A DNA stretch of 58,630 nt from an uncultured Bacteroidota bacterium (GTDB lineage Bacteria > Bacteroidota > Bacteroidia > Chitinophagales > Saprospiraceae). Position numbers and translations under genes: made by a program. The stretch covers positions 1 to 58,630 of the forward strand of contig CAIVGO010000253.1 of assembly GCA_903905445.1 (NCBI GenBank), read 5' to 3'. The notes under the pieces were generated by a model, which was given only the letters and a program-made list of their open reading frames with translations, was not told the DNA's origin and did not search any database. Below, piece by piece: positions 6,728-50,176 of the stretch. Numbering within the stretch: position 1 is the first letter of the stretch; each line of letters opens with the position of its first letter.

Positions 6728-6737
6728 CGTTGCCGTG

Positions 6738-25461: not shown

Positions 25462-25519
25462 ATCGTAGGCGCAGCCGTTGGACTGCTTTTTTTATCAATT
25501 CCGCAATTGCGGTAAATGT

Positions 25520-26989: not shown

Positions 26990-27023
26990 TAGTCTTTTTT
27001 TGTTTTGTAAATCCTGAAATCGT

Positions 27024-28931: not shown

Positions 28932-28993
28932 GTTCTTTTATGCGTTAGGTGTTGCGTGTTTGTAATCGAGCGCAACGACGAGTAACTTTTTTC

Positions 28994-29455: not shown

Positions 29456-29469
29456 GGTTAAATTGGTTT

Positions 29470-29790: not shown

Positions 29791-29810
29791 GGCTGCGCTG
29801 AGTTGTCAGT

Positions 29811-30311: not shown

Positions 30312-30439
30312 GTCGGTTAGTCGTTAGTTAGCGCGCGGCTTGAATTAGGTGCGGCAAAGAAAAAATTCAGAATACTCTGGTTGAATGTCAGGAGGTTCTT
30401 GGGATAAAACAAGTTCCAGTAATCGGTAATGGGACAAGG

Positions 30440-31003
30440 TTATTTTGCCGTTTCAGAAGCCCATTTTGGCTCTTGCACATGCTTTTGGCGCTTGGTTACA
30501 TCAATGCGCGTATCGGGCGTTGTACCTTCAACCAACATATCTTTCCCAAAAATAAACCCATCGCGTGCATAATCGGAAGGCACAATACGATCCGTCAAGA
30601 AAATCGCTTCTTTTGGACATGCTTCCTCGCACAATCCGCAAAAAATACAACGCAACATGTTGATTTCGTACACTGCGGCGTATTTTTCCTCTTTATAAAG
30701 GTGTTCTTCGCCTTTTTCACGTTCTTCTGCTACCATGGTGATGGCTTCTGCTGGACAAGCCACGGCACACAACCCGCAAGCTGTACAGTTTTCACGGCCT
30801 TGTTCATCGCGTTTCAATACATGCCAGCCCCGAAAAACGGGTGCAAATTCGCGCTGCTGATCGGGGTACTTCACCGTAGCAGGCTTCATGAAAAAGTGCC
30901 GTATAGTAATCGACATCCCTTTGAGAATAGCTGGAAGGTAAATACGCTCCCAAAAATTCATCTTTTTATTGACAACGTGTACGGAACGGTTAGTCAGTTG
31001 CAT
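30440..31003 (-). CDS. nuoI: NADH-quinone oxidoreductase subunit I (187 aa)
   Basis: Carries the two [4Fe-4S] clusters N6a and N6b that pass electrons to NuoB. Both motifs are intact: CTACGLCAVACPAEAI (about 79-94) and CIFCGLCEEACPKEAI (about 120-135). The N-terminal amphipathic region attaches to the membrane arm. Confidence 0.96.
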   Translation of the reverse strand: MQLTNRSVHVVNKKMNFWERIYLPAILKGMSITIRHFFMKPATVKYPDQQREFAPVFRGWHVLKRDEQGRENCTACGLCAVACPAEAITMVAEEREKGEEHLYKEEKYAAVYEINMLRCIFCGLCEEACPKEAIFLTDRIVPSDYARDGFIFGKDMLVEGTTPDTRIDVTKRQKHVQEPKWASETAK

Positions 31004-31055
31004 ATTTTTTTAATATTTCTTTTGCTGATCGAATAGGATCGCTTTAATCCCAATT

Positions 31056-32090
31056 TTAATTCCCAAATAACAGAATGCCACCCCCTGTTAATACCATGTT
31101 CAAAATGGCCAATGGAATGAGTGATTTCCAGCCCAGGTGCATCAATTGGTCGTACCGGAAGCGCGGAAGCGTCCAACGAATCCACATGAACACAAAAATG
31201 AAAAAGAAAATTTTGGCAAACAACACAATCGGGCCCATGAGTCCACCCAGCCATGCCGGATCCAAGCCCGGGAAATTGTACCCGCCAAAATAGAGGGTAG
31301 AAATCACTGCGCAGGAAATAAACATATTGATGTATTCGGCAAACAGGAAAAAGCCTAGTTTCATCGAACTATATTCGGTGTGGTAACCGCCAATCAATTC
31401 TGTTTCACATTCTGCCATATCAAAAGGCGCGCGGTTGCACTCTGCCAGGGCACAGGTAAAGAAGATGATAAAACCCAATGGCTGATAAATGATGTTCCAG
31501 CCAAAACCGGTTTGTTGTTCGGCAATATCGCGCAAACTCAAACTGCCGGAAATCATCACCACCGAAATAAGCGCAAGGCCCATCGCCAATTCGTACGAAA
31601 TCATCTGCGAACTGGCACGAATCGCACCATACAGCGAATATTTATTATTAGATGCCCAGCCGCCAATCATGATGCCATACACACCCAGGGATACAAAACC
31701 CATGATGTACAAAATACCAATGTTGATGTTGGTCACCTGCAAATCAATGGAACCGCCAAATAAGGTCAGTTGCGTACCCCAAGGAATCACCGCACTGGTC
31801 ATACAAGCCACAAAAATGAACGCCCCAGGCGCCAGGATATACAACCATTTTTCTGCCTGATTGGGCATAAAATCTTCTTTGGTAAACATTTTTACCCCGT
31901 CGGCAATCGGTTGCAAAAGTCCCCAGGGGCCAGCGCGATCCGGACCAATGCGATCCTGCATGAACGCGGCAATTTTGCGCTCGCCATAAGTAGAGTAGGC
32001 TGCAACACCCAACGTAATGGTAAACAAAACGACAATCAAGATCATTTTTTCAACCACAACGGCAAACACGAACAGTAATAAAATACTCAT
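31056..32090 (-). CDS. nuoH: NADH-quinone oxidoreductase subunit H (344 aa)
   Basis: Membrane subunit forming the quinone chamber with NuoB and NuoD. Eight helices; signature segments ERKIAAFMQDRIGPDRAGPWG, EYSSMKLGFFLFAEYINM and the Glu-rich loop FDMAECETELIGGYHTEYS. Followed by nuoI after 52 nt. Confidence 0.97.
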   Translation of the reverse strand: MSILLLFVFAVVVEKMILIVVLFTITLGVAAYSTYGERKIAAFMQDRIGPDRAGPWGLLQPIADGVKMFTKEDFMPNQAEKWLYILAPGAFIFVACMTSAVIPWGTQLTLFGGSIDLQVTNINIGILYIMGFVSLGVYGIMIGGWASNNKYSLYGAIRASSQMISYELAMGLALISVVMISGSLSLRDIAEQQTGFGWNIIYQPLGFIIFFTCALAECNRAPFDMAECETELIGGYHTEYSSMKLGFFLFAEYINMFISCAVISTLYFGGYNFPGLDPAWLGGLMGPIVLFAKIFFFIFVFMWIRWTLPRFRYDQLMHLGWKSLIPLAILNMVLTGGGILLFGN

Positions 32091-32131
32091 ATTAATTGGT
32101 ATTTAACCAGAATTCAACTTTTTTGAATGAA

Positions 32132-33064
32132 TTAGCGGACCGTTAGTGCCTTTTGGCCATAATGACCTTGGGCAATTACAGAATGCCGATCAATGCTGCG
32201 TGGACCTTCCACCACCCAATCGCCGGGTGCTTTTTTCTCAAAACGACAAGTATTGCAAATGAAATCATGCACCTCACCGTATTTGTCTTTGCGGGCGGTT
32301 ACGCGGAAAACTTCGTTGCCATACATCCACACCACGGCTTTACCGCTGCAGGTTGGACATTCGCGGTGGGCATCCATCGGATCGAGGAACCAAACGCGGC
32401 TTTTGAAGCGGAAGGTACGATCGGTCAAGGCACCCACTGGACAAACATCAATGACGTTGCCAGAGAAATCATTGTCAATCGCCTTTTCAATCATCGTACT
32501 GATTTCCGAATGGTCGCCGCGGTTCAAAATACCGTGTACGCGGTTGTCGGTCAACTGATTGGCGACATACACACAACGGTAGCACAAAATGCAACGGGTC
32601 ATGTGTAATTTGATATAAGGACCGATGTCGATTTTTTCGAACGTACGGCGTTCAAATTCATAACGCGTGCCTGCTGCGCCGTGTTCGAAAGCCAAATCCT
32701 GCAAATGACACTCACCTGCCTGATCGCAAATAGGGCAATCGAGCGGGTGGTTGAGCAGCAAAAACTCCACCACACCGGCGCGTGCTTTTTGCACTTCCTC
32801 GCTGGTGATATTGGCCACTTCCATCCCATCCATGACCATGGTTTGGCAGGAAGTAACGAGTTTGGGCATTGGGCGCGGGTCTTTTTCAGAGCCTTTAGTT
32901 ACTTTCACCAAACAGGTGCGGCATTTGCTGCCCGAACCTTGTAGGGTAGAGTAGTAGCACATGGCGGGCGGCACAATATCGCCTCCAATCATGCGGGCTG
33001 CCTGCAGGATGGTGGTGCCATCGGGCACTTCCATTTCGAATCCGTCTATTTTTACTTTTGGCAT
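32132..33064 (-). CDS. nuoG: Short NADH-quinone oxidoreductase subunit G, Fe-S domains only (310 aa)
   Basis: N-terminal [2Fe-2S] ferredoxin domain (PAMCYYSTLQGSGSKCRTC), the His/Cys [4Fe-4S] motif (HPLDCPICDQAGEC), and the CILCYRC ... CPVGAL cluster site are present. After that comes only a short tail with CPTC-x30-CNTC, and the roughly 600-residue molybdopterin-type domain of E. coli NuoG is absent. Short NuoG is, as far as I recall, usual in Bacteroidota, so this is not a truncation by mutation. The CxxC...CxxC tail sits where the N7 cluster (CxxCxxxC...C) begins in long NuoG and may bind iron-sulfur or zinc. The track's start at 33154 is too long; MPKVKIDG at 33064 matches the family. Confidence 0.93.
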   Translation of the reverse strand: MPKVKIDGFEMEVPDGTTILQAARMIGGDIVPPAMCYYSTLQGSGSKCRTCLVKVTKGSEKDPRPMPKLVTSCQTMVMDGMEVANITSEEVQKARAGVVEFLLLNHPLDCPICDQAGECHLQDLAFEHGAAGTRYEFERRTFEKIDIGPYIKLHMTRCILCYRCVYVANQLTDNRVHGILNRGDHSEISTMIEKAIDNDFSGNVIDVCPVGALTDRTFRFKSRVWFLDPMDAHRECPTCSGKAVVWMYGNEVFRVTARKDKYGEVHDFICNTCRFEKKAPGDWVVEGPRSIDRHSVIAQGHYGQKALTVR

Positions 33065-33105
33065 AGCAGTTATGCTGGTTGTATTATTTGTAAGTGTTGG
33101 ATTAA

Positions 33106-34446
33106 TTATACGGCAACCGGTTCGCGCACCAACCCATAATTCCGTTCCATACAAGCTTTCGGCTCATGTACGTGCCACTCAAATTCTTCCCGGAAATGCC
33201 GCACCGCTGCTGCAACCGGCCAGGCCGCTGCATCACCCAGTGGACAAATGGTATTACCTTCAATCTTTTTCGCGATATCCACCAACATATCAATGTCCGA
33301 TAGTTTGCCTTGGCCATTTTCCATGCGCCAAAGTACTTTTTCCATCCAGCCTGTACCTTCGCGGCAAGGAGAACATTGTCCGCAAGATTCGTGGCGGTAA
33401 AAACGCGCAAAATTCCAGGTATTGCGCACAATGCATTGATCTTCATCGTACACAATGAATCCACCCGAACCCAACATAGAGCCGGAAACGAAACCACCAT
33501 CCGACAAACTTTCGTAGGTCATCAGGCGCTGTTCGCCGTTGGCTGTTTTATTAATCAGGAAATGCGGCAAAATAGGCACTGAAGACCCACCTGGCACACA
33601 AGCCTTTAATTTTTTACCATTTTTAATACCACCGCAGTATTCATCCGAGTAGATGAACTCTTCCACGGGAACGCCCAATTCAATTTCATACACCCCAGGA
33701 CGGTTGATATTTCCGCCTGCGCTGATCAATTTGGTACCTGTGCTTTTGCCGATGCCGATTTTAGCATATTCGTCGCCGCCATCGTTGATAATTGGCACGA
33801 CGGCAGCAATGGTTTCTACGTTATTTACCACCGTTGGACTTGCCCACAAGCCTTTTACGGCCGGAAACGGTGGTTTTACGCGTGGATTACCGCGTTTGCC
33901 TTCCAGACTTTCGATCAAAGCCGTTTCTTCCCCGCAGATATACGCACCTGCGCCCGGAGCTACATATAAATCGAGGTCGTAACCCGATCCGAGGATGTTT
34001 TTACCTAACCAGCCATTGGCATAAGCCTCTTGAATGGCTTTTTCCAGGATAAACACGATCCAGGAATACTCACCGCGGATATAGATATAGGAAGTATTGG
34101 CACCCAATGCATAACTGGAGGTAATCATACCTTCAATCAGCAAATGCGGGATTTTTTCCATCAAATAGCGGTCCTTGAACGTACCAGGCTCGCTTTCGTC
34201 GGCATTGCACAACAAATAGCGTGGTACCCCTTCCGGTTTTGCCAGAAAAGACCATTTCATACCCGTTGGAAAGCCCGCGCCACCGCGACCGCGTAAGCCG
34301 GATTTTTTCACTTCTTCCAAAACGCCGTCGGGCGACATGGTTTTCAGTGCTTTTTCCACAGAGCGGTAGCCGCCTTGTTTGCGGTACACTTCGTAGGTGC
34401 GGATGCCCTCTACTTGGGCGTGTTCAATCAGGAGTTTGCGTCCCAT
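33106..34446 (-). CDS. nuoF: NADH-quinone oxidoreductase subunit F (446 aa)
   Basis: NADH- and FMN-binding subunit. GLRGRGGAGFPTGMKW (about 50-65) binds NADH/FMN, GAGAYICGEETALIESLEG contacts FMN, and SCGQCSPCREGTGWM plus a later Cys (NTICPLGDAAAWP) hold cluster N3. Followed by nuoG after 41 nt and preceded by the DUF2750 gene after 30 nt. Confidence 0.97.
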   Translation of the reverse strand: MGRKLLIEHAQVEGIRTYEVYRKQGGYRSVEKALKTMSPDGVLEEVKKSGLRGRGGAGFPTGMKWSFLAKPEGVPRYLLCNADESEPGTFKDRYLMEKIPHLLIEGMITSSYALGANTSYIYIRGEYSWIVFILEKAIQEAYANGWLGKNILGSGYDLDLYVAPGAGAYICGEETALIESLEGKRGNPRVKPPFPAVKGLWASPTVVNNVETIAAVVPIINDGGDEYAKIGIGKSTGTKLISAGGNINRPGVYEIELGVPVEEFIYSDEYCGGIKNGKKLKACVPGGSSVPILPHFLINKTANGEQRLMTYESLSDGGFVSGSMLGSGGFIVYDEDQCIVRNTWNFARFYRHESCGQCSPCREGTGWMEKVLWRMENGQGKLSDIDMLVDIAKKIEGNTICPLGDAAAWPVAAAVRHFREEFEWHVHEPKACMERNYGLVREPVAV

Positions 34447-34476
34447 TTTATCGAAAATAGTTGAAATTCAACAAAT

Positions 34477-34884
34477 TTATTTTGTGATGCGCTTGCCGTC
34501 CTCGTCGTACTGCTCCAATTCTTTCAGCAAATCTTCTTTCAACAAACTGGGTTCAACGACCGCGCCATTGAATTCAGTGTTGGGGCAAACCGCTACCAGC
34601 ATGCCTTCTGTTTCCATCTCATCCAGCCACTCAAGGAGTTCATTTACATCAAGTTCCATCACATCGTACTCCTCAAAATCGGCGGCTTTGCGGAAGGTTT
34701 CTGCAATTTCAGGATCCGGGAAAAACGGCAGAATGTCTGCATTATCGTCATCGCCCAACATGGCCCAGCCTTCTTCGTCGCCCAAACCAAACACGACTTC
34801 GGATTCTGCTACTTTCTTGATGAAATATTCGTAGCGTTTCTCTCCTGGTTTTTTGAATATTTTTTCTACTTCTGCAGGTGTCAT
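34477..34884 (-). CDS. DUF2750-like acidic protein inside the nuo operon (135 aa)
   Basis: A small very acidic soluble protein. RYEYFIKKVAESEVVFGLGDEEGWAMLGDDD, followed by a proline-rich strand (LPFFPDPEIA) and later VAVCPNTEFNGAVVEP, is the layout of DUF2750 proteins, whose function is unknown. It lies 21 nt after nuoE and 30 nt before nuoF, splitting genes for two subunits that touch in the NADH-oxidising module. The track begins it at a TTG (34905); the ATG at 34884 (MTPAEVEK) leaves normal spacing. Possible roles are assembly or regulation of the E-F-G module; this is inference from position only. Confidence 0.85.
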   Translation of the reverse strand: MTPAEVEKIFKKPGEKRYEYFIKKVAESEVVFGLGDEEGWAMLGDDDNADILPFFPDPEIAETFRKAADFEEYDVMELDVNELLEWLDEMETEGMLVAVCPNTEFNGAVVEPSLLKEDLLKELEQYDEDGKRITK

Positions 34885-34905
34885 TGCAATTTGTTTAAGG
34901 ATCAA

Positions 34906-35451
34906 TTAATGCATTTTCCAGGTGCCCTTGTCAATTTTACCCGCGCGACAATCTTCCAAAAATTGGTCAATCTTGGCCTCTGTCAGGTGTTCATGGTAAA
35001 ATTCGCCGACTTGCATCATGGGTGCGTATCCGCAGGCGCCTAAGCATTCCACTTCTTTGATGGTAAAAACGCCATCGGCAGTAGTTTCGCCGGTAGCGAT
35101 GCCCAATTTTTGTTGGGTATAGGCAATGATTCGCTCTGCTCCTTCAATCGCACAAGGGCCGGTATGGCAAAATTCCAAAACATAGTTACCGACCGGCTGC
35201 AAGTTGTACATGGAATAAAAAGTTGCCACTTCATACACCTCAATCGGTTGAATGCCCATGACCGCTGCCACCTGGTCCATCGCAGCGATGCTGAGCCAAC
35301 CGTGGTTTTCTTCCTGTGCAATGTGCAGAATACGCAGGATTGCACTTTTATGTTTTCCTTCCGGAAATTTTTGCATCAATGCTTTCGCTTCCGCCAAAGC
35401 GGCTTCAGAGAACTGGAACGGTGTTCCGTGGGTAGCACTTGTGGTTGTCAT
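34906..35451 (-). CDS. nuoE: NADH-quinone oxidoreductase subunit E (181 aa)
   Basis: Thioredoxin-fold subunit with the N1a [2Fe-2S] cluster. The cysteines are in FCHTGPCAIEGAE and VECLGACGYAPM. Helical N-terminal region with VAAVMGIQPIEVYEVATFYSMY is typical of the family. 12 nt after nuoD. Confidence 0.96.
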   Translation of the reverse strand: MTTTSATHGTPFQFSEAALAEAKALMQKFPEGKHKSAILRILHIAQEENHGWLSIAAMDQVAAVMGIQPIEVYEVATFYSMYNLQPVGNYVLEFCHTGPCAIEGAERIIAYTQQKLGIATGETTADGVFTIKEVECLGACGYAPMMQVGEFYHEHLTEAKIDQFLEDCRAGKIDKGTWKMH

Positions 35452-35463
35452 TTATTCTAATAT

Positions 35464-36669
35464 TTAAGCGTCTAATTCTCCGGCGATTACATTCATAGAG
35501 CTCATCGTCAGGATGGCATCTGAAAGCATAGCGCCTTTAATCATTTCGGGATAGGCCTGGTAGAAAATGAAACAAGGCCGACGGAAGTGCAAACGGTAAG
35601 GGGTACGGCCGCCATCGCTGGTGAGGTAAAACCCAAGTTCGCCATTACCGCCTTCTACTGCATGGTACACTTCTCCTTTTGGAATCGGAACTTCACCCAT
35701 CACCACTTTAAAGTGATAAATGAGGGCTTCCATTTTGGTGTACACATCGGGTTTATCGGGCAAGTAATAATCGGGCACATCGGCGTGGTAAGCGCCTTCT
35801 GGCAAGTTATTGTAAGCGTCGTTGATCAGTTTGAGCGATTGGCGAATTTCTTCCTGGCGCACCATAAAGCGGTCGTAGGTATCGCCGTTTTCGCCCACCG
35901 GGATGGTAAAATCGAAATCGTTGTAGCTGGAATAAGGTTCCATCACGCGAACATCGTAATCGACACCGGCTGCGCGCAGGTTTGGACCCGTAAATCCGTA
36001 GCTAAGCGCCTTGTCGGCAGTAATCGGGCCAGCGCCAATGCAACGATCCATAAAGATCCGGTTGCGTTCGAGCAGGCTGCCAAATTCTTCAAATTTCGGT
36101 GGGAAGGTTTTCAAAAAGTCCTTCAACAAGCGGTGAAAACGCGGAGAAAAATCACGCTCCATGCCGCCAATCCGGCCAATATTGGTCGTCAAACGCGTGC
36201 CACAAACTTCCTCAAACAGGTCGTAAATGCGTTCGCGTTCTTGGAAAACGTAGGTAAAGCCCGTCAAAGCGCCCGTATCTACCCCAATTACTGAGTTGCA
36301 CACCAGGTGGTCGGCAATACGTGAGAGTTCCATAATGATGATGCGCATGTACTGTGCGCGTTTTGGAAGCTCAATTTTGGCGAGTTTTTCGACCGTCATG
36401 TGCCAGCCCATGTTGTTGATGGGGGAGGAGCAATAGTTGAGTCGGTCGGTAATGGGTGTCACCTGATTGAAAGGACGGCGTTCGGCCAGTTTTTCAAATG
36501 CGCGGTGGATATATCCGATGGTAGGCTCGGCGCTCACGATTTTTTCCCCGTCCATTTTCAGGACATTTTGGAAAATGCCGTGGGTGGCGGGGTGGGTTGG
36601 ACCCAAATTGAGCGTCGCTAATTCGCCTTCGAAGTTATCTAATTGAGAAAAATAGGATTGAACCTGCAT
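35464..36669 (-). CDS. nuoD: NADH-quinone oxidoreductase subunit D (401 aa)
   Basis: 49-kDa quinone-site subunit. NLGPTHPATHG near the N-terminus carries the quinone-ligand His; GYIHRAFEKLAERRPF, YCSSPINNMGWHM and the C-terminal SDAILTMSSMNVIAGELDA follow the family. It is a separate gene, not fused to nuoC as in E. coli. 18 nt after nuoC. Confidence 0.97.
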   Translation of the reverse strand: MQVQSYFSQLDNFEGELATLNLGPTHPATHGIFQNVLKMDGEKIVSAEPTIGYIHRAFEKLAERRPFNQVTPITDRLNYCSSPINNMGWHMTVEKLAKIELPKRAQYMRIIIMELSRIADHLVCNSVIGVDTGALTGFTYVFQERERIYDLFEEVCGTRLTTNIGRIGGMERDFSPRFHRLLKDFLKTFPPKFEEFGSLLERNRIFMDRCIGAGPITADKALSYGFTGPNLRAAGVDYDVRVMEPYSSYNDFDFTIPVGENGDTYDRFMVRQEEIRQSLKLINDAYNNLPEGAYHADVPDYYLPDKPDVYTKMEALIYHFKVVMGEVPIPKGEVYHAVEGGNGELGFYLTSDGGRTPYRLHFRRPCFIFYQAYPEMIKGAMLSDAILTMSSMNVIAGELDA

Positions 36670-36687
36670 TTCGCGGAATATTAAAGT

Positions 36688-37224
36688 TTAGTCGAGCCTT
36701 TGTTGATAGTTTCCTTCGCGGCCAAAAAAGCGGTCGTCTTTATCGGTACGGGTTCCGTCTTCCAGTTTGAATTCTTTCCGCATTGGGAAAACGTCCATGT
36801 CGTCCACATTCAGGATACGGCGCAAGTCGGGATGTCCTGTAAAAATTACCCCGAAAAAGTCGTACTCCTGGCGTTCCATCCAGTTGGCAGAAGGCCATAA
36901 GCCGGTGAGGCTAGGAATATGTGGATCTGCCACCGGAATCCAAACGCGCACCCGAATACGGCGGTTATCCATCCAGTTATGCAAGTGGTAGGTAAGTCCC
37001 AATTCCCGGCCAGTTTGGTCGGGGTAATGGATCGCATTGAGGGTAGTCAGGAAGTGATAGTTCAAATCCTTGTCTTCCTTTAGCAGGGTGAGCAGTCCGA
37101 TCAGACTTTCTCTTGCGGTTTCAACGATCAGGATTCCGTCATAGGCCGTTTCCGAACCGAGCACCATTTCAGCGGCGTGCTGCATGATCCGGGCGTGCAC
37201 TAATTCATTTGTTAAACTGCTCAT
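36688..37224 (-). CDS. nuoC: NADH-quinone oxidoreductase subunit C (178 aa)
   Basis: 30-kDa subunit of the connecting module. FLTTLNAIHYPDQTGRELGLTYHL and WPSANWMERQEYDFFGVIFTGHPDLRRIL contain the family signature (ERExyDxxGxxFxxHPDLRRIL). Ends with the acidic tail RTDKDDRFFGREGN. 48 nt after nuoB. Confidence 0.96.
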   Translation of the reverse strand: MSSLTNELVHARIMQHAAEMVLGSETAYDGILIVETARESLIGLLTLLKEDKDLNYHFLTTLNAIHYPDQTGRELGLTYHLHNWMDNRRIRVRVWIPVADPHIPSLTGLWPSANWMERQEYDFFGVIFTGHPDLRRILNVDDMDVFPMRKEFKLEDGTRTDKDDRFFGREGNYQQRLD

Positions 37225-37272
37225 ATAAAAGGTATGGCTGAATGTTCGTTTTGTCTCGACTTGGCCGAAAAG

Positions 37273-37812
37273 TTATCCGATCTGGTATTTTTCGAGCAGG
37301 TGTTGGTATTCAGGAGAGTAACGGCGGCGTGCTGGTTCATTTTTAACCAACTCCTGAATTTTCATGACCCCGTCAATAATTTGTTCCGGGCGTGGCGGGC
37401 AACCTGGCACGTACACGTCTACAGGAATGACTTTATCAATCCCTTGCAGTACCGAATAGGTATCAAAAATGCCGCCAGAACTTGCGCAAGCACCTACGGC
37501 AATCACCCATTTAGGTTCAGCCATTTGGGTGTACACTTGTTTGAGGATCGGACCCATTTTTTTGGCAATGGTACCCATGACCATCAGCAAGTCGGCCTGA
37601 CGTGGCGAGAACGAAAGCCGTTCCATGCCGAACCGGGCAAGGTCGTAATTGGCACCCATGGTAGCCATGAATTCAATACCGCAACAAGAAGTAGCGAATG
37701 GAAGGGGCCAAATGGAGTTGGCGCGGGCCAAACCGATGGCTTTGCTCATAGAAGTGGCGTAAAAACCTTCTCCGCCAAATCCTTCAGGCATTTCTGCAGC
37801 GTTGATCGACAT
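37273..37812 (-). CDS. nuoB: NADH-quinone oxidoreductase subunit B (179 aa)
   Basis: Holds cluster N2, the final electron donor to quinone. The tandem cysteines are in [12 protein letters not shown] (about 40-51), with [10 protein letters not shown] and [12 protein letters not shown] completing the site. Preceded by nuoA after 78 nt. Confidence 0.97.
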
Positions 37813-40252: not shown

Positions 40253-40281
40253 CTGTGTCAATTAAGAAAAACAAGGCAAAA

Positions 40282-42912
40282 ATGAAACAATCCGAACAGT
40301 TCCGCCTGCAGGAACATTATTCCGCACAAAAAAACTGGCTTAAATGGGGCCCTTACCTTTCCGAACGCCAATGGGGAACTGTCCGCGAGGATTACTCACC
40401 CAATGGAACGGCCTGGGATTATTTTCCGCACGATCATGCGCGCTCGCGGGTGTATCGCTGGGGGGAAGATGGCATTGCCGGTATTTCGGATGAAATGCAG
40501 CGCATTTGTTTTGCCATTGCTTTGTGGAACGGGAAAGATCCCATTTTGAAAGAGCGCCTATACGGCATGACGGGCAGTGAAGGTAATCACGGAGAAGATG
40601 TGAAAGAACTGTATTATTACTTAGATAATACGCCCTCTCATTCGTATATGAAACATTTGTATAAGTATCCCCAGCAGGCATTTCCTTATGCCGATTTGCA
40701 GGAGCAAAACCGGTGGCGCGATCGCAAGCAAGCAGAATACGAATTGTTGGATACCGGGATTTTTGCAAATGACCAATATTGGGATGTATTTACTGAATAT
40801 GCAAAAGGTTCGGAAGAAGACCTGCTGATCCAAATTACCGTACACAATCGGTTTTCAGAAAGTGCTGAGTTGCATTTATTGCCAACCCTTTGGATGCGCA
40901 ATGCCTGGTCATTCGGGTTGATGGATGCAAAACCGGAAATCCGCAGTGCCGGGAAAAATGAGGTGCTGCTGCAACACGAAAAAGCGGGTCAATATCATTT
41001 CTATTTTCAGGATCCGGCGCTACAGTTATTTACCGAAAATGAAAACAACCAGGAGCGCCTTTGGGGGCAGCCCAATCCGACGCCTTTTGTGAAGGATGCC
41101 TTTCACAGGGCAGTGGTACAGCAGCAATTTGAATTTTTGGCGGAAAAAACGAGCGGTACCAAATTTGCGCCGATGTATAAGGTGCAGGTAGCGGGCGGCG
41201 AAAAGGCTGTTTTTCAATTGCGTTTATCCAAAAATGCCTTAAAAAAGCCATTTGGAAAGGAGTTTAACCAGGTGTTTGAGGATCGAAAACTGGAAGCAGA
41301 CCAGTTTTACCAACAAATACAAACCGAAGCAGCCACAAAAATAACAACGGATCAGCAAAATATTCAACGCCAGGCATACGCGGGTATGTTGTGGTCAAAA
41401 CAGTATTTCAACATTGATATGCCGCGTTGGCTAGATGGCGACCCGGGGCAAATTCCGCCGCCAGCAAGCCGTAAAACGGGGCGCAACAGCCATTGGCGTA
41501 CGCTCAATAACGAGGATATTATTTCCATGCCCGACAAATGGGAATACCCCTGGTACGCCGCTTGGGACCTGGCCTTTCATTGCGTGCCTTTGGCGCAGTT
41601 GGATGCCGAATTTGCCAAAAGCCAATTGGTACTTTTTTTAAGAGAATGGTATATGCACCCCAATGGCCAATTGCCCGCGTATGAATGGGCATTTGGGGAT
41701 GTGAATCCTCCCGTGCATGCATGGGCTTGTTTGCAGGTATTTCAAATTGACAAAGCGAAAACCGGCAAAGAAGATATTGATTTCCTGAAAAAAGTGTTTC
41801 AAAAGTTATTAATCAATTTTACCTGGTGGGTCAACCGGAAAGACCAACAAGGTAACAATGTGTTTGAAGGCGGCTTTTTGGGCTTGGATAATATCGGTGT
41901 GTTTGATCGCTCCAACCAAATTCCGGGCGGCGGCTACCTGGAGCAAGCAGACGGCACCGCATGGATGGCTATGTATTGCCTAAATATGTTGGAAATGGCC
42001 TTGGAGATTGCCCAGCATGATGCCAGTTTTGAAGATGTTGCGACCAAGTTTTTTGAGCATTTTACGTACATCGCCGAAAGTTTGAACCGTATGGGCCACG
42101 ACTGGACCAGTTCGTGGGATAAGGATGAAGCCTTCTTTTATGACATCCTTGCCTTGCCCAACGGATCATACGTTCCTTTGAAAGTGCGGTCGCTGGTAGG
42201 TTTGAGTACCTTGTTTGCAGCCTACATTTTGCCCAAAGAGAAATTGGAAAAATTGCCTGATTTCACCAAAAGGATGCGTTGGTTTCAACGCTATCGTACA
42301 GACAACGGGCAATACTTAGTACTGGAAGAAGACGCTAATAATGGCGATATTTTGCTGTCTTTGATACCGAAAGATCGATTGAGTTCCCTGTTGAACGCAA
42401 TGTTGGATGAAAATGAATTCTTGTCGCCTGGTGGTATCCGATCTATTTCTAAAATCCATAAGGATGGTTATTACGTCCAAATTGACGGAACACAATTTGG
42501 CTTGACCTATGAGCCGGGCGAAAGCACAACAGGTTTGTTTGGCGGTAATTCCAATTGGCGCGGTCCTGTATGGATGCCAATGAACTATCTGTTAATCAGG
42601 GCTTTAAACACGTACGGTACTTTTTATGGCGAACAATATATGACCGAATTCCCGGCAAGATCGGGTCATAAAATCGACTTAAAACAGGTCGCAAATGCAT
42701 TGTCCAAACGGTTGATCTCAATTTTTGAAAAAGACGAACACGGGCATCGACTTGTAAACGGAGACGAGAAAATATACACTGAAAATCCTCATTTTCAGGA
42801 TCTTATCTTGTTTTATGAATATTTCCACGGCGATACGGCAAAAGGAATTGGTGCGAGTCATCAAACAGGTTGGACGGGATTGGTTGCCGATTTGATTGGC
42901 AAGGCGGAGTAA
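40282..42912 (+). CDS. GH63/MGH1-type glucosidase (876 aa)
   Basis: A cytoplasmic protein (no signal peptide) with an N-terminal beta-sandwich (about 1-330) and a C-terminal (alpha/alpha)6 toroid like GH63 enzymes (mannosyl-oligosaccharide glucosidase, mannosyl-/glucosylglycerate hydrolase). WEYPWYAAWDLAFHCVPLAQLD (about residue 415-440) contains the usual catalytic Asp, and FGGNSNWRGPVWMPMNYLLI (about 753-772) the second conserved site. The opening RLQEHYSAQKNWLKWGPYLSERQWGTVREDYS is typical of bacterial 'glucosidase' entries. Substrate unproven; glucosylated solutes or glycogen-derived oligosaccharides are likely from context. The track's 40255 start is a GTG; the ATG at 40282 fits better. 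First gene of a three-gene operon. Confidence 0.88.
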   Translation: MKQSEQFRLQEHYSAQKNWLKWGPYLSERQWGTVREDYSPNGTAWDYFPHDHARSRVYRWGEDGIAGISDEMQRICFAIALWNGKDPILKERLYGMTGSEGNHGEDVKELYYYLDNTPSHSYMKHLYKYPQQAFPYADLQEQNRWRDRKQAEYELLDTGIFANDQYWDVFTEYAKGSEEDLLIQITVHNRFSESAELHLLPTLWMRNAWSFGLMDAKPEIRSAGKNEVLLQHEKAGQYHFYFQDPALQLFTENENNQERLWGQPNPTPFVKDAFHRAVVQQQFEFLAEKTSGTKFAPMYKVQVAGGEKAVFQLRLSKNALKKPFGKEFNQVFEDRKLEADQFYQQIQTEAATKITTDQQNIQRQAYAGMLWSKQYFNIDMPRWLDGDPGQIPPPASRKTGRNSHWRTLNNEDIISMPDKWEYPWYAAWDLAFHCVPLAQLDAEFAKSQLVLFLREWYMHPNGQLPAYEWAFGDVNPPVHAWACLQVFQIDKAKTGKEDIDFLKKVFQKLLINFTWWVNRKDQQGNNVFEGGFLGLDNIGVFDRSNQIPGGGYLEQADGTAWMAMYCLNMLEMALEIAQHDASFEDVATKFFEHFTYIAESLNRMGHDWTSSWDKDEAFFYDILALPNGSYVPLKVRSLVGLSTLFAAYILPKEKLEKLPDFTKRMRWFQRYRTDNGQYLVLEEDANNGDILLSLIPKDRLSSLLNAMLDENEFLSPGGIRSISKIHKDGYYVQIDGTQFGLTYEPGESTTGLFGGNSNWRGPVWMPMNYLLIRALNTYGTFYGEQYMTEFPARSGHKIDLKQVANALSKRLISIFEKDEHGHRLVNGDEKIYTENPHFQDLILFYEYFHGDTAKGIGASHQTGWTGLVADLIGKAE

Positions 42913-42940
42913 ATCATTTTTAAAATTTCAACTGTAAATC

Positions 42941-44962
42941 ATGTTAAAGAATAAAGATAAAGATCCTGACTTCCAGGATCTAAGCTCCAAAGAATGGCTT
43001 TTTACCAATGGCCTGGGCGGGTATGCCGCTTCCACGGTATTAGGCGCCAATACACGGCGTTACCACGGATTATTGGTGGCAGCGCTCAATCCGCCTACCG
43101 GGCGCATGGTACTGGTTTCTAAAGTAGAAGAATCCATTGTTTTCAACCGGGACAGTGCCTTTGCTTTATCGAGCAACCAATACCCTGGGGCGGTACATCC
43201 GGATGGCTTTCAATACTTTAAGTTTTTTGAAAGAAAGCCTTTGCCTACGATGAAATTTGAGGCGCACGGTTGTCATTTGCTCAAAACGGTGTTCATGGTG
43301 CATGGTTCTAATACAACCGTGGTAGAATACGAAAATACCGGCGCTTCCAATTTCAAACTGCGCTTAACGCCGATTTTTGTACACCGCGACGATCACGGCT
43401 TAAACCACCCCGATGCGAAATCGGATTATTGGGTAAAACGGGAAAATGGGTATCAGACATTGTATGCACATTTTGGGGCACCAGCGCTGTATTTTTCCTT
43501 TACTAAAGGGGAATATCTTGAAAACCGGCAATGGTATTACAATTTAGAATATGTTCGAGAACAGGAACGTGGACTGGATTATCGGGAAGATGCTTGCTCG
43601 GTGGCTTCCTTGGAAGTGATCCTTGCGCCTGGAGAAAAGACACATATGGTTTTTTCTACAGATGAAAAAATGATGAAGGAAGATCCGGCAGTGCTGAAAG
43701 TGAATGCTTTGAAGCGGCAAGAGGAAATTGCACAACCATCGGATGGTGATACGTTTTTGCGAGATTTGCTGCTTTCGGGTGACCAGTTTATCGTGCAGCG
43801 CAGGAGCACGGAAGGGTATTCTTTGATTGCAGGTTACCATTGGTTTACCGATTGGGGGCGGGATACGATGATTGCCATGCGTGGACTAACCATCGCCCCT
43901 GGTAAACATGAAATTTCGAAATCCATTTTAGAGACCTTTTTGCGCTCGGTGAATGAGGGCATGTTGCCCAATCGTTTTCCGGATCGTCCGAACGATCCGG
44001 TGGAGTACAACACCATTGACGCAACCTTGTGGCTGTTTGTGGCGCTGTATGAGTATCATCAAAAGTTTCAGGATCTTGATTTTATACGTCAATATTTTGA
44101 TGTTTTAACAGCGATTATTGATCAACATTTTGAGGGCGCGCGGTACCAGATCAAGGTAAATTCGGAGGGGTTTTTATCGGGCGGTGAAGGGCTGGCGCAA
44201 TTGACCTGGATGGATGCACGGGTTGGTGATTTTGTGGTAACGCCCCGTCATGGTGCTCCGGTTGAGATTCAGGCACTTTGGTACAATGCCTTGCGTATTT
44301 ACCAATATTTTGCAGGCACTTTGCAGCGGCCATTTGAGCGCGTTCAAGAAGTTGCGGATAAATTGTTGTTGAATTTTGAGCGTGTTTATGTGCTTGGCAA
44401 TGGAAGTTTGGTGGATGTGGTAGATTTCAGTTCAACACCCCCGAAAAAGGATTCAGCCATTCGTCCGAACCAATTGTATATAGTGAGTTTGCCTTTCTCG
44501 CTTTTAGGTAAAGAAGCCGAAAAGAAAGTAGTGGCCATTGTAAAAGCGCATTTATTGACCGATTATGGTTTGCGCACCCTTTCACCCGAACATACCGATT
44601 TTAAACCCGTATATGAAGGCGATCCATGGCATCGGGATACTGCCTATCATCAAGGTACCGTGTGGCCATTTTTGTTGAGCGAGTACATTACCGCCTATCT
44701 AAAAGTGCATAATTGGTCTGAAAAAGCGCAAAAAGAGGCACTTGCCATGTTGGAGCCTTTAAAAAAGCACTTTTACCAGGATCAATGTATCTTAGGTATT
44801 TCGGAGGTTTTTGACGGGAAATTGCCGCGTGTTGGAAAAGGAACCGTGCAGCAAGCCTGGTCGGTGGCAGCACTGATCAAAGTATTGTTCGAATTGAAAA
44901 AGCTGCAAGGAAAGAAGTCTACTTCCATTCCATTTTCAGTTAAAAAATCGCACTTCCAATAA
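42941..44962 (+). CDS. Amylo-alpha-1,6-glucosidase / glycogen debranching enzyme type (673 aa)
   Basis: N-terminal GDE_N-like beta domain (about 1-260, KEWLFTNGLGGYAASTVLGANTRRYHGLLVAAL) and C-terminal (alpha/alpha)6 domain (about 270-650) with YHWFTDWGRDTMIAMRGLTI (catalytic Asp region), NTIDATLWLFVALYEY, LAQLTWMDARVGDFVVTPRHG and DPWHRDTAYHQGTVWPFLL. It hydrolyses alpha-1,6 branches in glycogen-like polymers. Cytoplasmic. Lies 28 nt after the GH63 gene and 2 nt before the aquaporin, so all three are one transcript. Confidence 0.92.
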   Translation: MLKNKDKDPDFQDLSSKEWLFTNGLGGYAASTVLGANTRRYHGLLVAALNPPTGRMVLVSKVEESIVFNRDSAFALSSNQYPGAVHPDGFQYFKFFERKPLPTMKFEAHGCHLLKTVFMVHGSNTTVVEYENTGASNFKLRLTPIFVHRDDHGLNHPDAKSDYWVKRENGYQTLYAHFGAPALYFSFTKGEYLENRQWYYNLEYVREQERGLDYREDACSVASLEVILAPGEKTHMVFSTDEKMMKEDPAVLKVNALKRQEEIAQPSDGDTFLRDLLLSGDQFIVQRRSTEGYSLIAGYHWFTDWGRDTMIAMRGLTIAPGKHEISKSILETFLRSVNEGMLPNRFPDRPNDPVEYNTIDATLWLFVALYEYHQKFQDLDFIRQYFDVLTAIIDQHFEGARYQIKVNSEGFLSGGEGLAQLTWMDARVGDFVVTPRHGAPVEIQALWYNALRIYQYFAGTLQRPFERVQEVADKLLLNFERVYVLGNGSLVDVVDFSSTPPKKDSAIRPNQLYIVSLPFSLLGKEAEKKVVAIVKAHLLTDYGLRTLSPEHTDFKPVYEGDPWHRDTAYHQGTVWPFLLSEYITAYLKVHNWSEKAQKEALAMLEPLKKHFYQDQCILGISEVFDGKLPRVGKGTVQQAWSVAALIKVLFELKKLQGKKSTSIPFSVKKSHFQ

Positions 44963-45815: not shown

Positions 45816-46514
45816 ATGAAATCTATCATTGTTACAGGCGCTGCGGGTAACCTCGGCCAGGCTGTTGTTCGTCGATTTGCCGAAGATGGTCATAAAATCT
45901 ATGCGGTTTTGGGCCTGGGAGAGAATTCTCGGCAGTTCAGCGAGACCGCGTTGGCTGGGCGGGTTCATACCCAGTTTTTGAATCTTGCCGATGAAACCGT
46001 TTCGGAGGGTTATGTAAAAAACATCATTGCGGTTGATCCGGCGGTGGAGACGGCGATCTGTATTGTGGGCGGCTGGCAACCGGGTGGTATTGCAGAAACG
46101 ACTGGTTATGAAATTGACAAAATGATCAGCCTGAATTTTACGACGGCCTACAATATCGTGCGCCCATTGATGGATTATTTTGAACGCCGGGGCAGCGGGC
46201 AATTTGTGTTTATTGGCGCGCGTCCGGCCATTAATCCTGCAGAAGGAAAAAGCCAATTGGCTTATGCTTTATCGAAGTCGCTGGTGTTCCGTTTGGCCGA
46301 AATCATCAACGACCAGGGCAAATTCAAGAATATCCGGGCCAGTGTCATTATTCCCTCTTTACTGGACACGCCACAGAATCGCAATGCCTTTCCGGACGCC
46401 GAAGCAGAGGAATGGGTCACCCCAGATGTCGCCGCCGAAACAATTGCCTTCCTTTTAGGAGCAACGGGTGAAAACTTTCGGGAAACCGTCGTAAAATTGT
46501 ACAATCAAGCGTAA
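45816..46514 (+). CDS. Short-chain dehydrogenase/reductase (232 aa)
   Basis: Classical SDR Rossmann fold: cofactor loop TGAAGNLGQAVV (residues 7-18), a mid-sequence FIGARPAIN in place of the usual catalytic-Ser strand, and the active-site YALSK (Tyr-x3-Lys) near residue 150. The cofactor and substrate are not evident. Quite short at the C-terminus for the family. First gene of the six- or seven-gene operon 2; 26 nt before the next gene. Confidence 0.88.
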   Translation: MKSIIVTGAAGNLGQAVVRRFAEDGHKIYAVLGLGENSRQFSETALAGRVHTQFLNLADETVSEGYVKNIIAVDPAVETAICIVGGWQPGGIAETTGYEIDKMISLNFTTAYNIVRPLMDYFERRGSGQFVFIGARPAINPAEGKSQLAYALSKSLVFRLAEIINDQGKFKNIRASVIIPSLLDTPQNRNAFPDAEAEEWVTPDVAAETIAFLLGATGENFRETVVKLYNQA

Positions 46515-46540: not shown

Positions 46541-46777
46541 ATGGAACTCGCAACCTTACTGGTTACAATTTTTTACCTTTATGGAGCCATCGGGTGTGTT
46601 TTTGCCATCTGGTTTGTACTGCGTGGCGCACAACAATTGGACCACGATGCAAAAGGAATTTCCTGGCTGACACGGCTTTTATTCTTTCCTGGTAGCGTTG
46701 CCTTGTGGCCGTTCCTATGTTGGAAATGGCTGCAAAGCGTGACAAATCACCGCAACAACGATTCAAAAGCACCGTAA
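46541..46777 (+). CDS. Small two-helix membrane protein (78 aa)
   Basis: Two hydrophobic helices (about residues 3-28 and 42-62) joined by a polar loop with GAQQLDHDAKGISWLTR, and a polar tail (TNHRNNDSKAP). The WPFLCWKWLQS end of the second helix is rich in Trp and could pack against a haem or a partner subunit. No family recognised. It ends one base before the 36-aa ORF and shortly before the ferric-reductase/Rieske gene, so it is a likely small subunit of that membrane complex (inference). Confidence 0.75.
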   Translation: MELATLLVTIFYLYGAIGCVFAIWFVLRGAQQLDHDAKGISWLTRLLFFPGSVALWPFLCWKWLQSVTNHRNNDSKAP

Positions 46778-46778
46778 C

Positions 46779-46889
46779 ATGAACATCCGATTGCGTAAAA
46801 TGCACCGTTATTTCTGGTATTGTTTGGCCATTTTGTTGCCCATTGCCTGGCTTGCCGCCATATGGGTAATTCCAGACGTGCGCTGGTAA
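46779..46889 (+). CDS. 36-aa single-pass membrane microprotein
   Basis: Too short for the ORF track. Encodes MNIRLRKMHRYFWYCLAILL-type sequence followed by PIAWLAAIWVIPDVRW: a basic N-terminus, one transmembrane helix and a short end. It begins one base after the stop of the 78-aa protein and ends 36 nt before the ferric-reductase/Rieske start, with no other gene in the gap. The basic-in orientation and the His/Trp/Tyr-rich helix fit a small subunit of a cytochrome-like complex. The tight packing between two operon genes supports it being translated. Confidence 0.65.
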   Translation: MNIRLRKMHRYFWYCLAILLPIAWLAAIWVIPDVRW

Positions 46890-46925
46890 ATTTCCTTTTA
46901 AAAAACTTGAAAACTACCCATCATA

Positions 46926-47993
46926 ATGGCTCTTTCCTACGATCCTGTCCACTGGACACCCCATAAGCGTTTGTACGACCGGATTTTAATTTCGTTCATA
47001 GGGGTTTATCTCTTGTTGTTCATTGGATTACAGTCGGTTTTTCATCCAACATGTACCATCGAAACGACCCTCATTCGAGCAACCGGTACCCTGGGCTTTT
47101 TGATGTTGCACCTGATCCTGATCATTGGTCCGTTGTGCCGCTTCGATCGGCGGTTTTTACCTTTATTGTACAACAGAAGGCATTTTGGGGTAGCCATGTT
47201 TTTGGTAGCGCTAATGCATGGAATACTCAATTTGTTCCAGTTTCATGCCTTGGGTAATGTGGATCCGATGGTTTCCTTGTTTACTTCCAATACACAATAT
47301 GGTTCTTTAGCGCGATTTCCCTTTCAGTCCCTGGGCTTTTTTGCCTTGCTCATCTTGTTTTTGATGGCTGCAACCAGCCACGATTTTTGGCTTAAAAACT
47401 TGGGTCCACGGGTATGGAAAAGTTTACACATGAGCGTTTATTTTGCATATACCTTGTTGGTAATGCATGTGATGTTGGGGGTGATTCAACTTGAAAAATC
47501 GCCCGTGTTGATTGGAATGGTTGGCCTGGGTATGTTTTTAGTGCTTGGGTTTCACGTTGCCGCAGCAATGAAACAACATAAAACAGATGCTGCATCTGAG
47601 CGTGATGCCGATAAAACATCGAACCCGCAAGTACCCGAAGGCTTTGTTTACGCCTGCGAATGGTCAGAAATTGCTATGAATAAAGCCAAAATGCTGATTA
47701 TTGGCAAGGAGAACATTGCCTTATTTCGCTATGAGGACAAAGTTTCGGCAGTCCATAATTTGTGCAAACATCAAAATGGCCCGTTGAGTGAAGGACGCAT
47801 TATTGATGGTTGCATCACTTGTCCATGGCATGGGTACCAATATTTGCCGGAAAATGGGCAATCTCCACCGCCATTTACCGAAAAATTGGCCACTTATGAT
47901 GTGTTTGTATTGGGGTCCAGTGTTTATATAAACCCAAGTCCATTCCCGGAAGGTACAGCGCGGAACCCAGCACAAATTTCTATGTCCATCTAA
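46926..47993 (+). CDS. Ferric-reductase-like membrane protein fused to a Rieske domain (355 aa)
   Basis: Residues 1-220 hold about six transmembrane helices of the ferric reductase/MsrQ (YedZ) type: LMLHLILIIGP, RRHFGVAMFLVALMHGIL and SLHMSVYFAYTLLVMHVML supply paired histidines that probably bind haem b. A linker (about 220-240) leads to a C-terminal Rieske [2Fe-2S] domain with Cys280-x-His282 (NLCKHQNGPLSEG) and Cys299-x2-His302 (TCPWHGYQY). The C-terminal location after the last helix suggests the Rieske domain sits on the cytoplasmic or periplasmic face depending on topology; I favour the cytoplasmic side since no export signal is seen. It would move electrons between a soluble donor and haem across the membrane. 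Substrate unknown. Confidence 0.9.
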   Translation: MALSYDPVHWTPHKRLYDRILISFIGVYLLLFIGLQSVFHPTCTIETTLIRATGTLGFLMLHLILIIGPLCRFDRRFLPLLYNRRHFGVAMFLVALMHGILNLFQFHALGNVDPMVSLFTSNTQYGSLARFPFQSLGFFALLILFLMAATSHDFWLKNLGPRVWKSLHMSVYFAYTLLVMHVMLGVIQLEKSPVLIGMVGLGMFLVLGFHVAAAMKQHKTDAASERDADKTSNPQVPEGFVYACEWSEIAMNKAKMLIIGKENIALFRYEDKVSAVHNLCKHQNGPLSEGRIIDGCITCPWHGYQYLPENGQSPPPFTEKLATYDVFVLGSSVYINPSPFPEGTARNPAQISMSI

Positions 47994-48004
47994 ACGCCCC
48001 AAAA

Positions 48005-48811
48005 ATGCAAGAAGAAGAAGAATTTTATATTGGTTGGCTGGCGAAAGCGCCCCCGTCTTTTGCACGTCGGACCAGACAGTTTATTTTAGTAAGTGTTTTG
48101 TCGCTTCCATTGTTGATTTGCGGTCTTGTTTATTTCCAAAAGGGATTCTCCAATGGCGTTTTTGAATATGGGAAAGAAACCAGCCTCGTTGGAAAATTTA
48201 CCCCGAGCCCCTTACCTTTTTTGCGCTTAACCGATAAAGATCCGGTGTATGGACAACTGCCGCCCTGTTCTATTTTGTTGGTAGGGATGGGTAAACATGG
48301 TTTTTCTGCCGATCCGAACACCATTCCCGCAGAAAGTACGGTACGCGTCGACGGATTTTTGATTTACAGGGATGGTAAAATCGCCCTGCAAGTTAAAAAC
48401 ATCGCTTTATTGGATAAAAAAAGCCCAGAGGAGGGGAACAGCCCTTCCCGACCTGCGCCAGGTTCGACCTCTGTCAGCTTGCGGGGAGAAATAACAGACC
48501 CAAAGTGTTTTTTAGGCGTAATGAATCCAGGGGAAGGCAAGCCCCACCAGGACTGCGCCGTGCGCTGTTTGGCAGGCGGTATTCCGCCGCTGATGAAAGT
48601 GCGCGATGAACAGGGAAAAGATTCCTATTATCTTTTGGTGGGTGAAAATGGCAGCCCCCTTTTTCCATTTTTACAGCCTTATGTGGGGAGTGGGGTTGGA
48701 TTGTGCGGGCTTGTACAGGCCCATGATAATTGGAATGTCCTGTATGTTGACACCACTTCAGTTCAACGAATCAACAAATATGCACTCGACGCTGGTCCAA
48801 TGTGTCATTAA
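48005..48811 (+). CDS. Membrane-anchored Cys-rich protein of unknown family (268 aa)
   Basis: Short acidic cytoplasmic N-terminus, one transmembrane helix (about residues 28-46), then a large periplasmic-looking domain. The striking motif is DPKCFLGVMNPGEGKPHQDC followed by AVRCLAGGIPP (about residues 166-196), with three cysteines and a His that could bind a metal or form a redox disulfide; two further cysteines are CGLVQ and the C-terminal MCH. I have a memory of this motif in uncharacterised proteins beside Rieske/reductase genes but cannot name the family. It lies 11 nt after the ferric-reductase/Rieske gene and 9 nt before the esterase. Likely a partner of that membrane redox protein. 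Confidence 0.8.
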   Translation: MQEEEEFYIGWLAKAPPSFARRTRQFILVSVLSLPLLICGLVYFQKGFSNGVFEYGKETSLVGKFTPSPLPFLRLTDKDPVYGQLPPCSILLVGMGKHGFSADPNTIPAESTVRVDGFLIYRDGKIALQVKNIALLDKKSPEEGNSPSRPAPGSTSVSLRGEITDPKCFLGVMNPGEGKPHQDCAVRCLAGGIPPLMKVRDEQGKDSYYLLVGENGSPLFPFLQPYVGSGVGLCGLVQAHDNWNVLYVDTTSVQRINKYALDAGPMCH

Positions 48812-48820: not shown

Positions 48821-50176
48821 ATGTACCGCATAACATTTCAAATCCATTCTTTACCGATCAACACGCCGAAAGACGCGGTCTTTTATTTGGCAGGCAATTT
48901 CAATGAATGGATGCCCAATCATCTGGATTTTTGTTTTAAAATGCAATCTGATGGAGTGTACGAGTTGAATTTTGAAACAGACCTTACACAATTGGAATGC
49001 AAATTAACCCGCGGCGACTGGTCGGCCGAGGAAGGCGACGAATATGGGCGTATGATTCCAAACCGTATATTTCAAGTAGATTCAGAAAGTAGTTTGTATG
49101 TACAGGTAAATTCCTGGGTAGACATTCCTCCTAAGCACCCCGTAGGCATTGTGCGGCTCTTGCACCCAAACCTGTATATGCCTCAATTAGGGAGAAATCG
49201 CCGTATTTGGGCCTGTTTTCCGCCCGATTACTGGATGAATCCGAAAAAGCGTTATCCGGTGGTGTATATGCAGGACGGGCAGAATCTTTTTGACAATCCG
49301 GATGCAAAATTTGGTTCCTGGGACATTGACAAAGCCATGCACCAGTTATTTTTAAAACACCCCATGCTGCAAGCGCAAGCGCCCATTTTAATTGGCATTG
49401 AAAACGGGGAACATCACCGCATTGACGAATACGCCCCCTGGCCCAATCCCGAACACGGCGGCGGGGAAGGCGGGGCTTATCTTGATTTTATTTGCGAGAC
49501 GCTCAAGCCATACATCGATACGCATTTACGTACCCGTGTTGAACAGGAACATACCGGAATCATCGGCAGCAGCATGGGAGGCTTATTTTCCTTGTATGCT
49601 GTTTTGGAAAAACCGGATGTATTTGGTTTTGCGGGTGTCTTTTCACCCGCTTTATGGTTTTCAGAAAACCTGTTTGATTGGGTTAAATCCCGCATACCTA
49701 CCCAGCCAGTAAAAATATTGTTGATGGCCGGACAGCAGGAAAGTGAAGAAATGGTCGGCCAACTGCTGGATTTGTACGAAATTTTGTTGGAGACAGGTTA
49801 CAATGAGGATTTGATGCACTATGATTTACACTCCGATGGCACCCATTCCGAGCATTTTTGGGCACGCGAATTTGAACATGCTTTAGCCTGGTTACTGGGT
49901 GGCATGCCCGATCATTCGCATGGTATTTCCGACGAAATGATTCAATTCGGCTTAGACGCTGACAAAAAAGAATTGCTTATCAAAGTTGCACCGCGTTTGA
50001 AACATGCACAATTGGAAGTGCGCGATTACTGTCACAATCGCCAGTTCAAGCATCATTTAGGGCAAATTGATAACCGCGTACCGTATGCCGACTGGGAAGA
50101 CTGTATTTTTTCAATCCGTATGGTGTTGGGAAGCGACCTGGTTTTTTCCCGGCGTGTACCTTTAAATCATGTGTAA
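48821..50176 (+). CDS. Putative esterase with glycogen-binding-like N-terminal domain (451 aa)
   Basis: Residues 1-105 look like a CBM20/CBM48-type starch/glycogen-binding sandwich (FQIHSLPINTPKDAVFYLAGNFNEWMPN). Residues 120-360 form an alpha/beta hydrolase of the esterase D/Fes/IroE type (PF00756): YPVVYMQDGQNLFD, the nucleophile elbow GSSMGG (Ser251), and DGTHSEHFW with the catalytic His. A C-terminal extension (365-451) is unassigned. No signal peptide, so cytoplasmic. Deacylation of a sugar- or glycogen-linked ester is the natural guess; the family also contains siderophore esterases. Second-to-last gene of operon 2. Confidence 0.85.
   Translation: MYRITFQIHSLPINTPKDAVFYLAGNFNEWMPNHLDFCFKMQSDGVYELNFETDLTQLECKLTRGDWSAEEGDEYGRMIPNRIFQVDSESSLYVQVNSWVDIPPKHPVGIVRLLHPNLYMPQLGRNRRIWACFPPDYWMNPKKRYPVVYMQDGQNLFDNPDAKFGSWDIDKAMHQLFLKHPMLQAQAPILIGIENGEHHRIDEYAPWPNPEHGGGEGGAYLDFICETLKPYIDTHLRTRVEQEHTGIIGSSMGGLFSLYAVLEKPDVFGFAGVFSPALWFSENLFDWVKSRIPTQPVKILLMAGQQESEEMVGQLLDLYEILLETGYNEDLMHYDLHSDGTHSEHFWAREFEHALAWLLGGMPDHSHGISDEMIQFGLDADKKELLIKVAPRLKHAQLEVRDYCHNRQFKHHLGQIDNRVPYADWEDCIFSIRMVLGSDLVFSRRVPLNHV

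Follow-up and report, generated by a model that had tools for sequence, protein, structure and literature searches.

Several described systems share parts with the locus analysed here. In NOX and FRE, a ferric reductase domain (FRD) that binds haem is fed by a C-terminal cytoplasmic redox domain, an FAD/NADPH dehydrogenase. MsrQ (YedZ) combines a six-helix FRD, in which an arginine replaces the first haem histidine, with cytoplasmic electron entry and a periplasmic protein partner, the molybdoenzyme MsrP. Very small membrane subunits are familiar from cytochrome bd, whose CydX-type subunit has a single span, measures about 30 to 40 amino acids (aa), and is co-encoded with the membrane haem enzyme. 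Rieske domains were named in 2013 among the electron-transfer domains that go with FRD proteins, in the available part of that paper (PMC3591440). A Rieske protein in Bizionia was interpreted by its authors as bc1 (PMC9478572).

We analysed a 58,630-nucleotide (nt) stretch of DNA (here, the window) from an uncultured bacterium of the Saprospiraceae (Bacteroidota; assembly GCA_903905445.1, contig CAIVGO010000253.1). It carries four consecutive plus-strand open reading frames, A to D, in which C joins an FRD to a Rieske domain. C shares with NOX and FRE the haem domain with a C-terminal, predicted cytoplasmic domain that would feed it, but has a Rieske [2Fe-2S] domain in place of the dehydrogenase, together with an obligate, predicted periplasmic partner, D. 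All the MsrQ features listed above have observed or proposed counterparts in C and its partner; the differences are that C has its own Rieske domain, that its partner is D and not MsrP, that two micro-subunits accompany it, and that it scores below the MsrQ cut-off. The complex had first struck us as novel; as a domain architecture the fusion is not, since FRD-Rieske fusions of the same architecture are listed in the 2013 source (PMC3591440), the available part of which gives the architecture only, with no operon, A, B, D, topology, or Rieske-fused neighbours. The open-licence literature that we searched held no description of the operon, the micro-subunits A and B, D, or the Rieske-fused partners, in line with the view in a preliminary description of the window that no complex of such composition had been characterised. 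A, B, C, and D probably build a membrane complex, absent from that literature, which takes electrons from the inside to D, a metal-binding-like protein of a new kind on the outer face of the inner membrane.

The A-B-C-D module and its small subunits

The genes lie at positions 46541 to 46777 (A), 46779 to 46889 (B), 46926 to 47993 (C), and 48005 to 48811 (D), separated by 1, 36, and 11 nt, in agreement with the gaps first reported (1 to 36 nt). The dN/dS ratios of 0.07 to 0.20 across all four genes indicate purifying selection and, together with conserved gene order and conserved residues, mark A to D as more than a chance arrangement. The closest relative of the window among the best 80 of 446 D-encoding stretches (see below) is a Saprospiraceae MAG (L065). 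Pfam and NCBIfam gave no family above the curated cut-off for A, B, or D, and PADLOC, which covers anti-phage defence, recognised neither A, C, and D nor the esterase gene downstream.

In a sample of 396 genomes from the phylum, 13 had a full-length match to C (E < 1e-100) and 13 a full-length match to D (E < 1e-20), and these were exactly the same genomes (chance probability about 1e-24 on the assumption of independent genomes, which does not hold; the figure is uncorrected for phylogeny). The idea of a joint complex had been staked in part on co-occurrence of the genes, and C and D were found together in 13 of 13 cases. Nine further genomes had weak D matches only, against short standalone proteins, and weaker C matches were mostly Rieske domains belonging to other proteins.

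In the GTDB genome collection, a scan detected 446 stretches with a gene for a D relative, some of them in the cultivated genera Flavobacterium, Niastella, Aquimarina, and Dokdonia; the 80 best were retained as named loci. D was called in 79 of these loci and C in 77, with gene order unchanged; the two genes are adjacent, mostly less than 150 nt apart, and frequently overlap. Profiles of A and B matched directly upstream of C in 74 of the 77 loci. One exception (L121) has just 64 nt of sequence 5' of C, and the other two (L072 and L085) have more than 7 kb upstream, yet no recognisable A and B. C and D evolve together, their pairwise distances being correlated across the 77 loci (r = 0.85). 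Gene order in same-genus genomes with D is as in the window, and one Chitinophagaceae MAG (DGQT01) has two copies of the module (L078 and L087). Outside the phylum, five Rhizobium plasmids carry C (42 to 44% identical) and D (27 to 29%), and on the three annotated ones the order SDR-A-B-C-D matches that of the window. The occurrence in Rhizobium (Alphaproteobacteria) means that the module crosses phyla, by either old descent or transfer. These observations support A-B-C-D as one conserved module.

A (78 aa) is a membrane protein that has two hydrophobic segments and carries the motif PG(S)xALWP; its homologues span 63 to 78 aa, and its dN/dS against the closest relative is 0.20. B is a 36-aa single-span protein with the motif LRKxHRxxW. 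In the closest relative B also has 36 aa, ends at the same point, and is identical at 27 of 36 residues (75%), with a dN/dS of 0.12 (NG86; only 36 codons). B in most loci is about 120 to 165 aa long (often around 145) and consists of one span plus a periplasmic domain, whereas the B of the window stops after the span. Proteins of 27 to 34 aa that retain the start LRxxHxxIW are encoded in many other loci, and the Rhizobium B has 54 aa; since such short forms (27 to 54 aa) recur, the span is the constant part of B. We considered whether the 36-aa B could be a pseudogene remnant of the form of about 145 aa and rejected this, given the unchanged length in the closest relative, the low dN/dS, and the short forms elsewhere. 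The early proposal of two micro-subunits thus holds in that A and B are both very small membrane proteins under purifying selection; for B it applies to the short form, which is real, but not to the frequent longer form with its periplasmic domain. B is like CydX in size and in its single span. B is a conserved micro-protein of a kind that gene callers easily overlook.

Haem and Rieske domains of C

C (355 aa) is predicted to comprise a six-helix, ferric-reductase-like haem domain (PF01794; residues 53 to 179, positions 47082 to 47462, plus strand; E = 1e-13, 51.8 bits against a cut-off of 28) and a C-terminal Rieske [2Fe-2S] domain (PF00355; residues 241 to 312, positions 47646 to 47861, plus strand; E = 9e-15). 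The AlphaFold model (mean pLDDT, 88.3) has long helices followed by a beta domain.

The histidines outside the Rieske domain that do not vary in an alignment of 55 sequences are H62, H86, H98, H152, H168, H181, and H210. The candidate haem ligands, H98, H168, and H181 plus R84 and H86, are all invariant in this alignment, and the histidines of the putative outer haem, on TM3 and TM5, are H98 and H181. When placed by spacing on the FRD scheme in the available part of PMC3591440, H98, H168, and H181 correspond to His-115, His-209, and His-222. The invariant R84 sits 14 residues before H98, at the canonical position of the first FRD histidine, where the same part of that source gives arginine as the YedZ/STEAP signature (PMC3591440). 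The spacing from H86 to H98 departs from the His-X12/14-His pattern of NOX. With an arginine at the first histidine position, two complete haem His pairs in C are not assured. The haem-type His pairs of the preliminary description are therefore borne out as far as the invariance of H98, H168, and H181 (and H86) goes, but not for the second pair. One outer haem is well supported by these residues, and an inner haem is possible, perhaps with H86 and H168 as its ligands.

The Rieske ligands C280, H282, C299, and H302, already recognised as a complete set, are invariant in the 55 sequences, and the pattern C-x-H...C-x2-H is present in all 77 C proteins from the best 80 of the 446 loci. In Foldseek searches the Rieske part of C matched Rieske ferredoxins of dioxygenases (TM-score to target, 0.80 to 0.88); CarAc and BphA3 are the closest solved folds, with the difference that the Rieske domain of C is fused to a membrane haem protein. 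Mean counts of lysine plus arginine in 55 homologues are 3.3 for the N-terminus, 4.2 for loop 2, 2.5 for loop 4, and 3.8 for the linker; the remaining three loops have only 0.1, 0.5, and 0.3. By the positive-inside rule both termini, and hence the Rieske domain, are predicted to be cytoplasmic. C has no cytochrome b Pfam match, and the charge rule places its Rieske domain in the cytoplasm, unlike the periplasmic one of the bc1 type, which sets it apart from cytochromes bc1 and b6f. In fold the Rieske domain resembles soluble dioxygenase ferredoxins, and on the predicted topology it is not bc1-like.

The haem domain also raises the question of whether C could be an MsrQ that reduces the periplasmic methionine sulfoxide reductase MsrP. 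The MsrQ model does match the FRD part (E = 4.6e-11), and C has the YedZ arginine signature, but the NCBIfam MsrQ score is 42.6 bits against a cut-off of 130, and no MsrP-type protein (PF00174) was found in 14 of the 23 C-positive genomes, that of the window among them. An MsrPQ identity is thus mostly ruled out, and we give it hardly any weight.

D, a predicted periplasmic partner

D (268 aa) is predicted to be a membrane-anchored, periplasmic protein with two OB-folds. Its AlphaFold model (mean pLDDT, 87.4) contains one helix (residues 17 to 43) and two beta domains. The best Foldseek matches are generic OB-fold proteins; their TM-scores are low, as the alignments cover just one of the two domains. 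A search of the D sequence against the PDB gave nothing significant. Judged by its sequence, D is a new family with no match in Pfam or NCBIfam.

The motif CFLGVMNPGEGKPHQDC (residues 168 to 184) had already drawn attention to D. It lies within a C-H-C-C signature at positions 48506 to 48568 (plus strand). All 64 sequences compared share the residues C168, M173, H181, C184, and C188 of this signature, and D165, K167, G171, P175, G191, and G192 are likewise invariant. The general pattern, C-x12-H-x2-C-x3-C, is present in 79 of 79 D proteins from the best 80 of the 446 loci. Such a set of three cysteines and one histidine could bind zinc, a [2Fe-2S] cluster, or copper, or could act as thiols. 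The suggestion that D is a redox protein thus narrows to a predicted anchored tandem OB-fold with a C-H-C-C site and a putative redox role.

An anchored OB-fold with such a site, next to a protein with a ferric reductase domain, would also suit iron or haem handling or a periplasmic metal reductase, with C reducing Fe(III) or Cu(II) and D serving as a metal chaperone loosely like CcmE. The likeness of D to the CcmE haem chaperone is in the predicted OB-fold; D has no Pfam match. The recurring neighbour families whose sequences were inspected included no recognised iron or copper transporter, and the FRD name need not mean metal reduction, MsrQ being a counterexample. We regard metal handling as unlikely.

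Standalone secreted proteins of 120 to 145 aa with a C, H, C, C pattern are encoded elsewhere in the phylum (L056 to L063, e.g., L059, positions 8037 to 8471). These short D-like proteins have no Pfam family above the cut-off, and their neighbours gave no consistent functional clue. The one in L059 adjoins proteins that we take to be a superoxide dismutase and an IscA-type protein. A few such neighbourhoods with a putative superoxide dismutase (L059), and the haem scaffold that C has in common with NOX, would fit a C that is a bacterial NOX variant producing superoxide outside the cell, with D tuning or sensing it. C nevertheless does without the FAD and NADPH domains specific to NOX (no FAD- or NAD(P)H-binding Pfam match at E values up to 1), and an obligate partner such as D suggests a protein acceptor. 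Superoxide production is accordingly a very improbable function, though less so than MsrP reduction.

Neighbouring genes and proposed direction of electron transfer

Directly 5' of A, at positions 45816 to 46514 (plus strand), is a gene for a 232-aa SDR-family oxidoreductase (Pfam adh_short, E = 1e-19). An SDR gene also directly precedes A-B-C-D on the Rhizobium plasmids (34 to 36% identical), and 22 of the 80 named loci (the best of 446) include an SDR family; SDR is likely a functional partner outside the core subunits. The esterase-family gene (positions 48821 to 50176, plus strand; Pfam Esterase, 4e-28) starts 9 nt after D and adjoins it only in near relatives of the window, which makes it lineage specific. 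GH63-like, GDE, MIP, SDR, esterase, CRP, and GMC genes surround the module and are kept in near relatives, which suggests carbohydrate or osmotic metabolism without identifying a substrate. The upstream region from 40255 to 44962 holds the GH63-like glycosidase and glycogen-debranching-type (GDE) genes, followed by the MIP channel and SDR, and near the module on one Rhizobium plasmid lies a glucosidase gene whose product shares 49% identity with the GH63-like protein. Further away, a minus-strand cluster at 24070 to 37812 appears, by eye from the list of open reading frames, to contain genes of the NADH dehydrogenase (complex I) type. In Chitinophagaceae and relatives, inspection by eye found YHS-domain-like, GlcG-like, and SMP-30-like proteins recurring near the module (L074_16, L084_16, and L069_01, among others).

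Additional genes with both Rieske ligand motifs lie beside the module in 33 of the 80 loci (the best of 446). There are 53 of them, including 30 Rieske-Glu_synthase and 21 Rieske-ThDP fusions; a further locus, L042, has a Rieske domain with an FMN reductase. Both of the main types are unusual proteins that recur beside the module, and L045 encodes the two together (Rieske-ThDP enzyme at 10418 to 12364 and Rieske-glutamate-synthase FMN fusion at 5629 to 7242). Of 23 C-positive genomes, 15 had the glutamate synthase fusion and 8 the ThDP fusion, against 2 and 0 of 23 C-negative ones, a comparison confounded by relatedness, as the C-negative set is mostly of the window's genus. At the thresholds used, the window's genome and the five C-positive relatives nearest to it had neither fusion, so such donors are not universal.

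On balance, we favour A-B-C-D as a NOX/MsrQ-like inner-membrane electron-transfer complex with a cytoplasmic Rieske entrance and D as the periplasmic acceptor. C would cross the membrane six times with both termini in the cytoplasm, and its Rieske domain would replace the FAD/NADPH domain of NOX or the separate flavin reductase of MsrQ. Soluble cytoplasmic redox proteins would hand electrons to this domain; in many relatives the donors are probably the co-encoded Rieske-bearing ThDP enzyme and the glutamate-synthase-like FMN enzyme. Electrons would cross the membrane through b haem, with H98 and H181 near the outside and, towards the inside, a probable second site that includes H168. D would receive them, and its C168/H181/C184/C188 site would bind a metal or cluster, or act as thiols, and pass them on to a final acceptor. 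A, with its two short spans, and B, with one, would be structural micro-subunits that dock C and D into a physical complex.

We infer the outward direction from likeness to the FRD superfamily; to our knowledge, every characterised system (NOX, FRE, MsrQ, and STEAP) sends electrons outward. The sequence itself does not fix direction, and a periplasmic donor could instead feed D and the haem, with electrons leaving through the Rieske domain of C to cytoplasmic Rieske enzymes such as the glutamate-synthase-like FMN enzyme. Soluble Rieske-bearing enzymes are indeed encoded beside the module, and a glutamate-synthase-type FMN domain is usually an electron consumer. The precedent of the superfamily argues against this inward path, the Rieske-ThDP partner would more naturally supply electrons, and the window's genome has neither enzyme at the thresholds used; we consider it about as unlikely as metal handling.

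More tentatively, and with the odds somewhat against it, the outward complex may represent a new class, in which cytoplasmic enzymes hand electrons, Rieske to Rieske, to a haem subunit that sends them on to a new periplasmic tandem OB-fold redox protein with a C-H-C-C centre, with two micro-subunits (one of which can be shorter than 30 aa) and conservation across phyla. The D relatives in cultivated genera and the module on Rhizobium plasmids make it testable. If the proposed reading is true, the NOX/MsrQ superfamily would gain a branch that is fed by a Rieske domain, not by a flavin, and that has its own periplasmic partner.
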